This document shows positions 58,991 through 63,993 of a DNA stretch of 64,000 nucleotides, in pieces. The translations under genes were made by a program, and so were the position numbers. Every line of letters starts with the position of its first letter. Positions within the stretch are counted from its first letter, which is position 1. The stretch comes from Parvibaculum lavamentivorans DS-1 (GTDB lineage: Bacteria; Pseudomonadota; Alphaproteobacteria; Parvibaculales; Parvibaculaceae), in assembly GCF_000017565.1 (NCBI RefSeq), contig NC_009719.1, positions 3,021,001-3,085,000 on the forward strand. The letters are read 5' to 3'. The notes beneath the pieces were generated by a model. The model was not told the DNA's origin and searched no databases. It was given only the letters and a program-made list of their open reading frames with translations.

Positions 58991-59059
58991 GCGGCGAATC
59001 GCTGGTATAGTCGGCGCGCGGGAGAATGCCGTTTGCGCGTTCGGCCCGGTGAGGCAGAG

Positions 59060-59130
59060 CCCCCGCCCCGAAATTTGTTTCGCTGACGCTACTCAAATTT
59101 CGACCCTCCCCCCAGGGGAGGGTGGGAAGA
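59060..59130. repeat. Two-hairpin dispersed repeat, copy 2
   Basis: A 71-bp copy between recO and parC. Its first stem is CGAAATTTG, 16-base loop, CAAATTTCG (59069-59102); the second hairpin is ACCCTCCCC-CCA-GGGGAGGGT, followed by GGGAAGA, identical to the copy at 7864-7923. The differing first stem remains perfectly paired. A short TCGCAATGACG block at 59141-59151 after it matches the end of the 41-bp repeat near 61441. Confidence 0.8.
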
Positions 59131-59175
59131 GGCGAAGGCCTCGCAATGACGACCAAGTAACGAGAAGATTTGCCG

Positions 59176-61422
59176 ATGACCAAAGTTGCACCGCCGCCGG
59201 AGCCGGAACACGAGATCAATTTGCGGGAGGCGCTGGAGGAGCGGTATCTCGCTTATGCGCTCTCGACGATCATGCATCGGGCGCTGCCGGATGTGCGGGA
59301 CGGGCTGAAGCCGGTGCATCGGCGCGTACTGTTCGCGATGCGGCAGCTGAAACTCGATCCGGGGTCGGGGTTCAAGAAATCGGCGCGCGTGGTGGGCGAT
59401 GTCATCGGCCGCTACCATCCGCATGGCGACCAGTCGGTCTATGACGCGCTGGTGCGGCTGGCGCAGAGTTTTTCGGTGCGCTATCCGCTGGTCGACGGGC
59501 AGGGCAATTTCGGCAATGTGGACGGCGATAACGCGGCGGCGATGCGCTACACCGAAGCGCGGCTGACGGAAGTTGCGGCGCAGCTGCTGAACGGGATCGA
59601 CGAGGACACGGTCGATTTTCGCGACACCTATGACGGCGAGGACAGCGAGCCGACGGTGCTGCCCGGCGCCTTTCCGCAATTGCTGGCGAATGGCGCGGCG
59701 GGGATCGCGGTCGGCATGGCGACCAGCATTCCGCCACATAATGCGGCCGAGCTTTGCGACGCGGCGCTTTATCTCATCAAGCATCCGAATGCGAAGACGG
59801 AGAAGCTGGTCGAATTCGTGAAGGGGCCGGACTTTCCGACGGGCGGCATCATCGTGGAACCGAGGGCGGCGATGCTCGAGGCTTACGAGACGGGGCGCGG
59901 CGGCTTTCGCGTGAGGGCGCGGTGGGAGCAGGAAGAGCTGCCGCGCGGCGGCTACCAGATCGTCGTCACGGAAATTCCCTATCAGGTGCAGAAGTCGAAG
60001 CTGGTGGAGAAGATCGCCGAGCTGTTGCAGGCCCGCAAGCTGCCGCTGCTGGAAGATGTGCGCGACGAGAGCGCGGAGGAAATCCGCCTCGTGCTGGTGC
60101 CGAAGGCGAGGACCGTCGATCCGGCGCATCTGATGGAGTCGCTTTTCCGTTCGACCGAGCTGGAGAACCGCTTTCCGCTCAACATGAACGTGCTCTCCGC
60201 CGGGCAGGTGCCGGGCGTGATGTCGCTACGCGGCGTGCTGCGGGCATGGCTTGAGCATCGCAAGGTTGTGCTGGTGCGGCGCTCGAACTTCCGGCTCGAC
60301 AAGATCGAGAAGCGGCTCGAAGTGCTGGAAGGCTATCTCAAGGCCTATCTCAATCTCGACGAGGTGATCCGCATCATCCGGCAGGAGGATGAGCCGAAGC
60401 CGGCGCTCATCAAGAAGTTCAAGCTCACTGACAACCAGGCGGAAGCCATTCTCAACATGCGGCTGCGATCTTTACGCAAGCTGGAGGAGATGGAAATTCG
60501 CGGCGAGCACAAGGAACTGTCGGCGGAGCAGAAGGCGCTGAAGTCGCTCGTCAAATCCGAGGACAAGCAATGGGCGCGTGTCGCGGACGAGATCAAGGAA
60601 GTGAAGGCGCTGTTCGGACCGAAGACGGCGCTCGGCGCGCGGCGGACGAAATTCTCCGATGCGCCGGCGATCGAATATGTGCCGATGGAAGCGATGATCG
60701 AGAAGGAGCCGGTGACGGTCGTCTGCTCCAAGAAGGGCTGGATCCGCACGATGAAGGGGCATGTCGGGCCTGATACGGAGATCAAGTTCAAAGAAGGCGA
60801 TGCGGGACGCTTCCTGCTTCACGCGGAAACGACCGACAAGGTTTTGCTGTTTGCGACGGATGGGCGCTTCTACACACTCGACGTGACCAAGCTGCCGGGC
60901 GGGCGCGGCAATGGCGAGCCGGTGCGGCTGATGATCGACCTCGACGAGAGCCACGAGGTGGTGGAGCTCTTCGTACACCAGCCGGGGCGGAAGCTCATCG
61001 TCGCGTCGCATGAAGGCAATGGCTTCATCGTGCCGGAAGACGAGGTGGTGGCGATGCGCCGGGCGGGCAAGCAGGTGCTGAACGTGACCGGCAAGGACGA
61101 GGCGATTGCCTGCGCGCCGGTGCAGGGAACGCATGTGGCGGTGATCGGCGACAACCGGAAGCTGCTGATCTTCCCGGTGAAAGAGGTGAACGAGATGACG
61201 CGCGGCAAGGGCGTGCGGCTGCAACGCTATGCCGATGGCGGGCTCGCGGATGTGAAGACCTTCAACCTGAAAGAGGGGCTGACTGTTTACGACAAGAGCG
61301 GCAGGCAGCGGAACTTCCCGGACCTCAAGGACTGGGTGGGCGCGCGGGCGCAGGCCGGACGCTTGCCGCCCAAGGGCTTCACGAGCGAGCGGAAGTTCGG
61401 GGGGCCGTTCGGGGCGGTGTGA
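59176..61422 (+). CDS. parC: DNA topoisomerase IV subunit A
   Basis: A 748-residue ParC that decatenates chromosomes. The breakage-reunion domain has [20 protein letters not shown] and [15 protein letters not shown]; the quinolone-region block is [20 protein letters not shown]; the catalytic tyrosine is in [13 protein letters not shown]. The C-terminal beta-pinwheel repeats are [37 protein letters not shown] and [20 protein letters not shown]. The position of E. coli Ser80 is Gln here. ATG 59176 is preferred over TTG 59170. It ends the long rightward cluster of housekeeping genes. Confidence 0.96.
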
Positions 61423-61440: not shown

Positions 61441-61481
61441 GCTTCATGGATTGCCGCGTCGCTTCGCTCCTCGCAATGACG
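61441..61481. repeat. 41-bp repeat, copy A
   Basis: Identical over 41 bases to 61890-61930; it begins GCTTCATGGATTGCCGCG and ends CGCAATGACG. A shorter, inverted relative lies at 61510-61539, so copy A and that one can pair as a long hairpin with a 28-base loop. Sequences with GTCATTGCGAG...GCAATCCA recur in many bacterial genomes. Confidence 0.9.
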
Positions 61482-61509
61482 TGGTTAGTTTGATTTCATA
61501 TCTCAAACA

Positions 61510-61539
61510 CGTCATTGCGAGCGAAGCGAAGCAATCCAT
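61510..61539. repeat. Inverted, shorter form of the 41-bp repeat
   Basis: CGTCATTGCGAGCGAAGCGA followed by AGCAATCCAT is the reverse complement of most of copy A with two small deletions. It lies between copy A and the GIY-YIG gene. Confidence 0.85.
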
Positions 61540-61581
61540 AGGGCGCCTGCGACAGGGTGGGGCGGCTAGCGGGAGTGACAA

Positions 61582-61869
61582 ATGAAGCGTCCGGCCGTCT
61601 ACATTGTCGCAAACAAGCGGAACGGAACCATCTATACCGGCGTGACATCACATCTGGAGCGGCGCATCTATGAGCATCGAGAAGGAGTGCTATCCGGTTT
61701 CTCAAAACGCTATGGCTGCAAGATGCTCGTCTGGTACGAAATGCTAGACGAGATGGAATATGCGATTGCACGCGAGAAGCAGATCAAGGCCGGTACGAGG
61801 CAAAAGAAGATCGATCTCATCCAAAGCGGGAATCCCGAATGGCGGGATTTGTATGAGGAGTTGATCTGA
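61582..61869 (+). CDS. GIY-YIG nuclease-fold protein
   Basis: A 95-residue GIY-YIG domain: VYIVANKRNGTIYTGVTSHL is the GIY...YIG-like pair (VYI, YTG), RRIYEHREG holds the Arg/His positions and EMEYAIAREKQIKAGTRQKK is the conserved acidic-basic helix. This is the short YhbQ/YazA-type protein often found in many copies per genome. Copies A and C of a 41-bp repeat bracket it at 61441 and 61890, suggesting a linked mobile or repair function. Whether it is an active nuclease is unknown. Confidence 0.9.
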   Translation: MKRPAVYIVANKRNGTIYTGVTSHLERRIYEHREGVLSGFSKRYGCKMLVWYEMLDEMEYAIAREKQIKAGTRQKKIDLIQSGNPEWRDLYEELI

Positions 61870-61889
61870 GGTTTGGGGCGATCCCTACC

Positions 61890-61930
61890 GCTTCATGGAT
61901 TGCCGCGTCGCTTCGCTCCTCGCAATGACG
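61890..61930. repeat. 41-bp repeat, copy C
   Basis: Direct repeat of copy A, 449 bases downstream of it, starting 20 bases after the GIY-YIG stop and ending 21 bases before the stop of the opposite-strand gene at 61952. Confidence 0.9.
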
Positions 61931-61951: not shown

Positions 61952-62443
61952 TCAGTTTATCGTCAGGGGCTCGCGGATTTCGTAGCCCCAGTAGCGGATG
62001 AAGAGGATGTAGTCGCCGGGCGTTACGCGAGTGGGATCGAGGTTCAGCGTGTAGTTGCCGGTCATGTTCGTCTTCGGTTCGAGCGCGCCCGTTACCGGCA
62101 GATTGACGCAAGGCTCGTCGTCGCGCTGCGACTGGACGAGGTTCTTGTCTTCATCGGTGACGAACCAGCGGAAAATATCGCATTGGGAGCGGAGTTCCAG
62201 CGGCAGCGCCTCGTCGGTGTTGTTGGCGAGGGTGAGGCTTACATCAAGCGTTGTCAGCGAGGTGGCGCTGTAGGTCGCGGGCTGGCTCAAGCGGGCGGTG
62301 AGTTCGACCGGCTCGCTCATATCGACGCGGCCGGTGACGATGAAGAACATGACGACGCCGACCATCGCAAGGGCGACGAGCGCGAAGCGCATCATGTTGC
62401 GGCCTGCTTCCTCGGCCGCTTCTGTTGTGGGACGTTTTGCCAT
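61952..62443 (-). CDS. Membrane-anchored protein with an extracytoplasmic beta domain
   Basis: A 163-residue protein with one N-terminal hydrophobic helix (FALVALAMVGVVMFFIVTG) and an outside domain of beta-type sequence: TLDVSLTLANNTDEALPLEL, two cysteines (SQCDIFRW, EPCVNL) that may form a disulfide, and LNLDPTRVTPGDYILFIRYW. This resembles BsuPI-like proteinase-inhibitor folds, but the match is by pattern only. The ATG at 62443 is chosen over 62482. It lies 5 bases after the TRAP permease gene and may be co-transcribed with it. Confidence 0.6.
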   Translation of the reverse strand: MAKRPTTEAAEEAGRNMMRFALVALAMVGVVMFFIVTGRVDMSEPVELTARLSQPATYSATSLTTLDVSLTLANNTDEALPLELRSQCDIFRWFVTDEDKNLVQSQRDDEPCVNLPVTGALEPKTNMTGNYTLNLDPTRVTPGDYILFIRYWGYEIREPLTIN

Positions 62444-62448
62444 GTGGA

Positions 62449-63993
62449 TTACATACCGCCGAAGAGGACGCCCGGCAACCATGTGGCGAGGGCGGGGAAA
62501 AGGGCGATGACGCCGAGCGCCAGAAGCTGCAGCAGGACGAAGGGAACGGCGCCGCGATAAATCTGCATGGTGCTGACGCTCTCAGGCGCGACGCCGCGCA
62601 GATAGAAGAGGGCGAAGCCGAAGGGCGGCGTGAGGAAGGAGGTCTGCAGATTGACCGCCATCATGACGCCGAGCCAGATGGGATTGACGTCCATCATCAG
62701 CAGGATCGGAGCGACGATCGGCACCACGACGAAGATGATCTCGATGAAATCGAGAAAGAAGCCGAGCGCGAACATGATGAGCATGACGGTGATGACCGCG
62801 CCGGTGGCGCCGCCCGGCATGGAATTCAGGAATTCATGCACCGTGTCGTCGCCGCCGAGGCCACGGAAGACGAGGCTGAAAAGCGCGGCGCCGATCAGGA
62901 TGATGAAGACCATTGAGGTGATGCGCGCGGTGCTTTGTGTGACCTCGCCTATGACGCCGCTGCCCCAGAGGCGGAAGATGCTGGCGAAGAGACCCCAGGC
63001 AACGACGGCGCAGAGCGCATAGGCGAACCAGATGGCAAGCCAGTCGCTGCCGGAGATTTCGCTGCGCGCGGTCCGAAGATCCACAAAGGAGGTGAGCAGC
63101 AGCAAGGCGGCCAGCGCGGCGGCGGCCATGCGGACGGGAAGCTTGAGGCCGCCCGCGCGGTCGCCCGCGAGGAGGATGGAGCCGATGGCGCCGAGCGCAG
63201 CGGCTTCCGTCGGCGTTGCGATGCCGCCGAGGATCGAGCCCATGACGGCGACGATGAGCGCGACGGGCGGGAGAAGAGCGCGCAGCGTGCGGCGATAGAG
63301 TTCGGCGGTGGTGACGCTGTCATCGACCGGCATGGCGGGGGAGGACTTCGGATCGAGCGCGGCGCGGACGACCTGATAGAGGATGTAGAAGCCGACCAGC
63401 ATGAGGCCGGGCAGCAGCGCGCCCGCGAAGAGATCGCCGACCGAGAGCGTATCCGGCATCCAGTTGTTCTGTTCGAGCTGTGCCTTCTGGTAGGCGTTGG
63501 CGAGTGTGTCGCCGAGCAGCACGAGGACAATGGAGGGCGGGATGATCTGCCCGAGCGTGCCGGCGGCCGCGATGGAGCCGGAGGCGAGGGCGGGATCGTA
63601 GCCGCGGCGCAGCATGGTGGGGAGAGCGAGGAGCCCCATCGTCACCACGGTTGCGCCGACGATGCCTGTGGAGGCGGCGAGGAGCGCGCCGACGATGGAG
63701 ACAGAGATGCCGAGGCCGCCGCGCAAATGGCCGAAGAGGCGGCCCATGTTTTCGAGCAGTTCCTCCGCGACCTTGGAACGCTCCAGCATGGTGCCCATGA
63801 AGACGAAAAGCGGCACGGCGATCAGCACGTCGTTCGTCATGTTGCCGTAGATGCGTTGCGGCAGCGCAGCCATGAAGCCGAAGTCGAAGACGCCGAAGGC
63901 CATGCCGAGGAGGCCGAAGACGAGCGCGACGCCGGCCAGCGTGAATGCGACGGGGAAGCCGGTGAGCAGTACCGCGCAGACGGCGATGAACAT
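62449..63993 (-). CDS. TRAP-type large permease (DctM-like), 5' end possibly beyond the window
   Basis: A protein of at least 514 residues with many hydrophobic helices, matching the DctM large subunit: FVFMGTMLERSKVAEELLEN, LAASTGIVGATVVTMGLLAL, SIAAAGTLGQIIPPSIVLVL and, near the end, FALGFFLDFIEIIFVVVPIV and NLQTSFLTPPFGFALFYLRG. These carry the TRAP-type helix-break motifs. It works with a small membrane protein and a periplasmic binding protein, neither seen here. The first Met lies 8 bases from the window end, and preceding codons are in frame, so the true start is probably upstream. The central segment is longer than in compact DctM proteins. Confidence 0.88.
   Translation of the reverse strand: MFIAVCAVLLTGFPVAFTLAGVALVFGLLGMAFGVFDFGFMAALPQRIYGNMTNDVLIAVPLFVFMGTMLERSKVAEELLENMGRLFGHLRGGLGISVSIVGALLAASTGIVGATVVTMGLLALPTMLRRGYDPALASGSIAAAGTLGQIIPPSIVLVLLGDTLANAYQKAQLEQNNWMPDTLSVGDLFAGALLPGLMLVGFYILYQVVRAALDPKSSPAMPVDDSVTTAELYRRTLRALLPPVALIVAVMGSILGGIATPTEAAALGAIGSILLAGDRAGGLKLPVRMAAAALAALLLLTSFVDLRTARSEISGSDWLAIWFAYALCAVVAWGLFASIFRLWGSGVIGEVTQSTARITSMVFIILIGAALFSLVFRGLGGDDTVHEFLNSMPGGATGAVITVMLIMFALGFFLDFIEIIFVVVPIVAPILLMMDVNPIWLGVMMAVNLQTSFLTPPFGFALFYLRGVAPESVSTMQIYRGAVPFVLLQLLALGVIALFPALATWLPGVLFGGM

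Follow-up and report, generated by a model that had tools for sequence, protein, structure and literature searches.

The window analysed here, a stretch of 64,000 nucleotides from Parvibaculum lavamentivorans DS-1, contains a small GIY-YIG gene that is intergenic, lying between a topoisomerase gene, which we take to be parC, and a small reverse ORF, and not in an intron, an intein or a target gene, the positions that define a homing gene. It is surrounded by short palindromic repeats of the REP type (Table 1). The initial annotation had seen the gene as bracketed by two 41-bp repeats, A and C, with a shorter inverted copy beside A. A repeat search confirmed the 41-bp identity of A and C, which run in the same direction, and the presence of the inverted third copy, B. 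The gene does lie between repeats, but its true bracket is the inverted pair B(+)/C(-), with CGTC tags outward and CCA tails inward, and not the direct pair A/C, which is secondary, A being a further copy that does not belong to the unit. As an inverted REP pair with the gene in place of the loop, the unit resembles a REPIN. The inverted-repeat arms of the B region (61470-61486 and 61505-61521; B core 61511-61521) are 94% complementary. A partial match reported at 59141-59151 is also real, spans 59139-59152 in the repeat search, and belongs to a REP remnant. The G+C content of the gene is 51%, against 62% in the window.

Table 1. Repeat and gene features of the parC region in the window.
Feature	Position	Strand	Remarks
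REP remnant	59138..59152	-	recO-parC gap; gene and REPs at the same site in sister species G011, G023 and G019
Topoisomerase gene	59170-61422		upstream of the unit
REP copy A	61441..61481	-	extra copy outside the unit, equal to C over 41 bp
REP-nuclease-REP unit	61510..61930	+	421 bp, from REP B through the GIY-YIG gene to REP C; comparable layouts in other species
REP copy B	61510..61538	+	CGTC tag outward, CCA tail facing the gene
GIY-YIG nuclease gene	61582..61869	+	95 aa
REP copy C	61890..61930	-	CGTC tag outward, inverted relative to B
Small ORF (labelled fix)	61952-62482	reverse	no Pfam match

The protein matches the GIY-YIG domain (PF01541, E 2.2e-15) and has the conserved Tyr, Tyr, Arg and Glu of the superfamily, which are the catalytic residues of GIY-YIG enzymes. 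Among the invariant columns of 32 aligned members are Y7, Y18, R28, H32, E65, K69, N84 and W87; the alignment (A3) was built from 31 of the 80 broad-set loci described below, the best 80 of 592. The structure model has a mean pLDDT of 95, and its nearest solved folds are 1zg2 and 1ywl (UPF0213), followed by SLX1 and UvrC. In a tree of 104 clade rows and 15 YhbQ rows (every second broad locus, 14 of the 22 YhbQ loci and L065), a single branch with 100/99 support separates the clade of the window gene from the YhbQ types, the tree having few columns and many unresolved inner forks. The window gene has six orthologous relatives that are 67-87% identical to it, dN is far below dS in 20 of the 21 ortholog pairs, those with a finite dS, and six of these seven orthologs have REP-like hairpins on both sides, the seventh on a single side. 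The motif residues are conserved and the gene is under purifying selection. A defence-system library gave no match. Rfam gave three matches up to E 1, none at the gathering score. Phage relatives were considered and set aside, the best of 15 records having 41% identity. The gene shares its catalytic domain and motifs with GIY-YIG homing endonucleases (e.g. I-TevI), YhbQ/UPF0213 and UvrC/SLX1, but differs from them in being intergenic and about 95 aa long and in belonging to a clade that is bracketed by REPs, unlike the YhbQ types.

The window REP type, GTCATTGCGAG, has the tag, an ATTGC/GCAAT outer stem and a CCA tail. We counted 32 copies of its core in the genome of 3.91 Mb and none of the backward-read pattern, so that the repeat is not due to chance. 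Nine neighbouring + - pairs of these cores are 70-93 bp apart, and one pair, 408 bp apart, encloses the gene. Chance or artefact was also rejected more generally, since backward patterns gave no hits in three pattern searches and only a few single hits in another, and since the gene, interval and paralogue controls given below rule it out as well.

The initial annotation had suggested counting the repeats in this genome and asking how often GIY-YIG genes lie beside them. An association limited to the GTCATTGCGAG core beside any GIY-YIG gene proved too narrow, applying to one of the seven GIY-YIG genes of the genome. The association does hold when CGTC REPs of further types are counted: each of the five clade genes has REPs on both sides, with a type of its own. 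The REPs of the other four genes differ in type but share one grammar, GTC followed by a stem and by CC or CCA. These flanking REPs are GTCACCCCGGCGAAAGCCGGGGTCC at L031, GTCACCCCCGGGCTTGACCCGGGGGTCC at L032, GTCATCCCGGCACTTGTTGCCGGGACCCA at L034 and GTCATCCCGGCGAAAGCCGGGACCCA at L035, where the nearest upstream copy is in the opposite orientation. No such REP was found beside the YhbQ-type gene (L036) or uvrC (L037) of this genome. The REP copies of the clade genes begin with CGTC or TGTC, and not with the GTAG tag.

Starting from the repeats gave the same picture. With two exact patterns we counted 100 REPs of the GC-stem pattern and the 32 GTCATTGCGAG cores, forming 38 inverted neighbour pairs within 1 kb; pairs of other REP types fall outside this count because of the exact patterns used. 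Of these pairs, 34 are short and REPIN-like, their starts lying 55-116 bp apart, and each of the four inverted pairs spaced by 200-1000 bp encloses a clade gene, which excludes the lack of any genome-wide association that would have spoken against the idea. The genome thus holds both dispersed REPs and REPs flanking a gene, as in a REPtron. When DNA folding was compared with shuffled sequences, four GC-stem types formed stable hairpins (z -3.5 to -4.6) and the window REP type folded no better than its shuffles (z 0.12, 1.05 and -0.01).

These repeats can be compared with the CGTC REP super-family defined by Di Nocera, De Gregorio and Rocco in 2013, which includes dRS3 of Neisseria and RPE-4/RPE-6 of Rickettsia. 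In the accessible text of that survey, the elements have a CGTC tag (often TGTC or CCTC), first pairs that are almost always A-T, a stem of 8-9 bp, a loop of 4-5 nt and mostly a CCA tail, and they are mostly found as inverted (HH) dimers (PMC3733652). The tag, the A-T first pairs, the CCA tail and the inverted dimers are shared with our repeats. The GC-stem types beside the other clade genes fit this definition, as far as that text gives it, or nearly so, some having a C-G in place of the second A-T pair, whereas the window type fits it in part, with the tag and the CCA tail, and differs in its shorter outer stem and variable inner part.

In order to see how far the bracketing extends, we applied one hairpin detector to three sets of loci and to the controls. 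It demands that 8 of 8 positions be paired, and 7-bp stems, e.g. at L035, are therefore missed. The broad set came from a protein-only search with one genome per species and one peptide pattern, from which the best 80 of 592 confirmed loci were taken; five with short flanks were dropped (L108, L112, L119, L155 and L161), leaving 75 with 250 bp per side. The relatives comprise 64 loci, after leaving out L033 (a duplicate of L038), L036 and L065 (YhbQ type), L037 (uvrC), the fragments L210-L212 and one locus with a short flank. The phylum sample provided 30 loci, one each from 30 of 37 genomes, of which two already used and three with short flanks were removed, leaving 25.

REP-like hairpins were found on both sides at 51 of the 75 broad loci and on at least one side at 69, these loci being drawn from the best 80 of 592. 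Within the same best-80 selection, 24 loci have no detected hairpin on at least one side and six have none on either side, all six of them sharing a flank word of 13-39 nt. A motif-free test, for a word of at least 13 nt shared between the 250-bp flanks, was positive at 61 of the 75 (again from the best 80 of 592). Among the relatives, hairpins were present on both sides at 46/64 loci and on any side at 55/64, with a shared word at 51/64; five of the nine loci without a detected hairpin share flank words of at least 12 nt. The corresponding figures for the phylum sample were 13/25, 20/25 and 17/25, with no hairpin detected at 5/25. Of 349 other genes of the same 80 contigs, 10 had hairpins on both sides, 68 on any side and 15 a shared word, and the contrast with the 51 of 75 broad loci from the best 80 of 592 gives a Fisher p of 4e-37. 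Random intervals had hairpins on both sides in 5/909 and on any side in 118/909, with a shared word in 14/1215 intervals with 200-bp flanks, and the YhbQ-type GIY-YIG genes of the genus gave 0/22, 4/22 and 0/22, respectively. Orientation is biased too: the nearest upstream copy is + in 44/59 and the nearest downstream copy - in 45/61 cases at the broad loci (from the best 80 of 592), and in 39/46 and 47/55 cases at the relatives.

By record title, the two-sided loci among the best 80 of 592 include ten lineages, namely Pseudomonadota groups, Deltaproteobacteria (L098), Coriobacteriales (L106), Omnitrophota (L109), Bacteroidetes (L110), Chloroflexi (L114), UBP14 (L115), Moraniibacteriota (L132), Kerfeldbacteria (L149) and Parcubacteria (L175), many of these records being MAGs in which misbinning is possible. 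One Rhizobium plasmid gene (L269) had neither REP-like hairpins nor a shared flank word. On the Azospirillum lipoferum plasmid AZO_p3 (L272), a GIY-YIG gene lies between sufB and sufC with an inverted REP pair on each side. A clade gene of Neisseria gonorrhoeae is flanked by GTCATTCCCGCGCAGGCGGGAATC-type repeats (ATTCCC...GGGAAT), which we take to resemble dRS3. Two records of the plasmid collection, NZ_CP119140.1 and NZ_CP119142.1, are N. gonorrhoeae sequences of 2.17 Mb, chromosome-sized and apparently misfiled.

The REP type follows the protein subclade, even within a genome. For 47 genes from 19 genomes of the genus, each with a detectable + upstream or - downstream unit, protein and REP similarity between genomes were correlated (Spearman 0.47), whereas shuffling the REPs within genomes gave values that averaged 0.02 and did not exceed 0.29, with none of 2000 shuffles as high. 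The upstream and downstream REPs of a single gene resemble each other (0.78, 38 genes), and REPs taken from two genes of the same genome do not (0.29, 80 pairs). Genomes with the gene also carry more REPs, with exceptions. Outside the elements, GTCATTGCGAG reaches a median of 15.0 copies per Mb in seven genomes with the cognate gene and 6.0 in 18 without it (p 0.007, uncorrected for kinship), and a second type, GTCACCCCGGCG, has 4-25 such copies in five genomes with its clade and a median of 0 (range 0-22) in 20 genomes without it (p 0.0025, likewise uncorrected). In a phylum sample of 150 genomes drawn evenly, with the gene called by profile A2 at E up to 1e-15, 37 genomes had the gene, and at least 10 REPs of a general pattern were found in 16 of these 37 as against 6 of the 113 without it (p 2.6e-7, kinship uncorrected); the 21 gene-bearing genomes with fewer than 10 copies are counted with a pattern that misses several REP types. 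The exceptions include G009, G016 and G021, with 49, 53 and 68 GTCATTGCGAG cores and no cognate ortholog, and G001 and G024, with 22 and 12 copies of the second type and no gene (no match to the clade in G001).

Comparison of the parC region in 23 sister species showed that the unit differs in presence and place between them. The gene with its REPs follows parC in G008 and, cut by the contig end, in G005, and precedes it in G011, G023 and G019, G023 having in addition a broken copy after parC; none of the other 18 parC-region loci matched the gene. At the site orthologous to the window unit, G011 (L068) has one single REP of the window type, a state that would also be obtained by recombination between A and C, and further sisters have a short gap only (e.g. 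L073, L085 and L090). The recO-parC gap is occupied by the remnant in the window, by the gene in three relatives and by REPINs of other types in several. The gap is thus a hot spot (58991-59169 in the window and the equivalent stretch in L068-L090): some sister species have nothing there, others have REPINs, which belong to at least three types, and others have the gene with REPs. A Sphingobium plasmid site, between fnrL and a response regulator, has the REP-gene-REP arrangement in seven whole-query records, four of which were inspected; the same site lacks the gene and has a fused half-REP in two plasmids, and has other short palindromes and no gene in two more. The fused half-REP could be the scar of a loss or a REP that preceded insertion. 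Comparing empty and filled sites, as the initial annotation had suggested for sister strains, showed differences in presence and place between sister species but yielded no clean pre-insertion site or target duplication there, and neither could be defined in the Rhizobium, Sphingobium and Shinella plasmids. Decayed gene copies were also seen: L274, on a Sphingobium plasmid, has a one-base gap, and the copies in G006, G023 and G009 (L210, L211 and L212) are split or partial.

Several features are shared with REP/RAYT systems (REPtron, TnpA-REP): tagged palindromes often in inverted pairs, a small gene flanked by the same repeats, a repeat type matched to the enzyme, and dispersed copies without a gene. 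The tag, however, is CGTC here and GTAG there, and the enzyme is a 95-aa GIY-YIG nuclease here and an HUH Y1 transposase there, so that the unit, although it probably works in the manner of a REPtron, is a different system. The initial annotation had likened the arrangement to REP elements and their RAYTs, with a different class of enzyme, and its suggestion of a nuclease-repeat unit is supported by the layout, by its recurrence and by the gene, interval and paralogue controls. A full-text search, with preprints and most subscription papers outside its reach, found no paper linking GIY-YIG and REPs among the matches listed, and the link may be published elsewhere. In their accessible parts, a 2006 phylogenomic study of GIY-YIG proteins does not mention repetitive, palindromic or intergenic sequence (PMC1564403), and neither a 2018 survey of HuH proteins (PMC6006769) nor the 2025 RepRanger paper (PMC12306157) mentions GIY. 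The 2013 survey concluded, in the text accessible, that CGTC REPs apparently have no dedicated transposase (PMC3733652), in contrast to the nuclease partner that we propose.

We think it rather probable that CGTC REPs have their cognate nuclease in the GIY-YIG protein, the REP-gene-REP unit of about 0.4 kb being a minimal autonomous element and the REPIN-like pairs its non-autonomous relatives. Gene and REPs are associated and are inherited as a unit, although adjacency alone permits the joint inheritance of a gene and its flanking REPs; cleavage of the REPs and mobility of the unit through the GIY-YIG protein are what we infer from this. REPINs would then relate to the GIY-YIG unit as they do to RAYT, with an unrelated enzyme. 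We propose that the protein would recognise the REP hairpin or its CGTC tag in DNA that is most likely single-stranded, extruded or branched, just as SLX1 and UvrC, its relatives in fold, have structured DNA as their substrate, and would nick or cut at the hairpin base. Since the window REP type folds no better than its shuffles, a larger palindrome of two REPs or a sequence-specific contact may matter in its case. The GIY-YIG domain is not known to join DNA, and joining would therefore be left to the host, whose repair or recombination could then copy or delete the REP-bounded stretch.

The main rival explanation is one of homing. The GIY-YIG gene would be a parasite akin to a homing endonuclease, cutting REPs that are already present and becoming copied into them, the REPs being only its target and spreading by other means. 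It would account for single-REP states at sites that are filled elsewhere (the window site in G011, and the Sphingobium plasmids TomTYG64 and TomTYG74), which would then be candidate targets for cleavage of an empty allele, and for the numerous REPs of several gene-less genomes. However, REP number rises with the cognate gene, the REP type is subclade-specific even within one genome, and sub-terminal sequence is common to a REPIN loop and gene units, e.g. CCATCCACGTCTT in the GGCCC type; nor does the accessible text of the 2013 survey name another enzyme for CGTC REPs (PMC3733652). We consider this explanation unlikely.

The bracket could also be passive, the REPs being terminators, protective hairpins or tolerated intergenic sites and the gene a hitch-hiker with no biochemical link to them, as might be expected where REPs lie mainly downstream of coding regions, which the 2013 survey reports in its accessible text (PMC3733652), and where one gap, that between recO and parC, has received several REPIN types in sister species. 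Against this, a bracket was found at 10 of the 349 neighbouring genes on the broad-set contigs and at none of the 22 YhbQ-type genes of the genus, and the orientation bias at the broad loci from the best 80 of 592 (upstream + 44/59, downstream - 45/61) also speaks against it, which makes it improbable in our opinion. REP/RAYT systems are the known precedent for REPs, and by that precedent a RAYT-type (HUH Y1) or other classical transposase could move the repeats, with the GIY-YIG gene secondary. No Y1 match of the RAYT type (PF01797) was found in the genome of the window, even though the same search was positive in 5 of 14 control genomes, and a RAYT as the mover was rejected on this ground. 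Among genes bracketed by CGTC repeats, the survey describes, in the part accessible, none for a tyrosine transposase, and for other classes a few associations that it regards as fortuitous (PMC3733652), so that a classical transposase as the mover seems to us very improbable.

Should the nuclease reading be correct, the consequences would go beyond Parvibaculum, since CGTC REPs are widespread and intergenic and have no dedicated enzyme in the accessible text of the 2013 survey (PMC3733652). Repeats of many phyla, possibly including dRS3 of Neisseria, would gain a small and testable nuclease, the REP/RAYT way of life would have arisen twice, the second time with an unrelated enzyme, and a role would be found for a widespread gene that is often annotated merely as a GIY-YIG nuclease family protein. 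More tentatively, the 95-aa GIY-YIG gene with its REP ends (about 0.4 kb) might represent an unrecognised minimal class of mobile element that spreads itself and REPINs and lies behind the CGTC REPs seen in many phyla, including dRS3 and RPE, DUF559 nucleases perhaps acting likewise with other palindromes.

Many DUF559 nuclease genes of the sister genomes (L235-L264) are in fact bracketed by another palindrome class, CCCTCCCCGAAATT...GGGGGAGGGTGG or CCCTCTCCCC...GGGGAGAGGG. Taking 30 of the 36 matches, of which L263 gave no ORF, and keeping two loci with short flanks, we found a flank word of at least 13 nt shared at 19 of 29 DUF559 loci, compared with none of the 22 YhbQ controls. DUF559 as a partner of CGTC REPs was rejected, none of the 29 loci having CGTC-type hairpins on both sides. 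DUF559 and its palindromes are possibly a second nuclease-repeat pair, and a small nuclease with its cognate palindrome could therefore be a general route of spreading. A stretch of G000 contig 1 (973589-974378, L312) is repeated at 354-bp spacing and contains a CGTC REP pair and a palindrome of the DUF559 class. In the window, a copy of this palindrome lies at 59061-59131 beside the REP remnant, and coincides with a weak Rfam match to the whalefall-1 RNA at 59059-59125 on the minus strand (24.8 bits, gathering score 37, E 0.0021).
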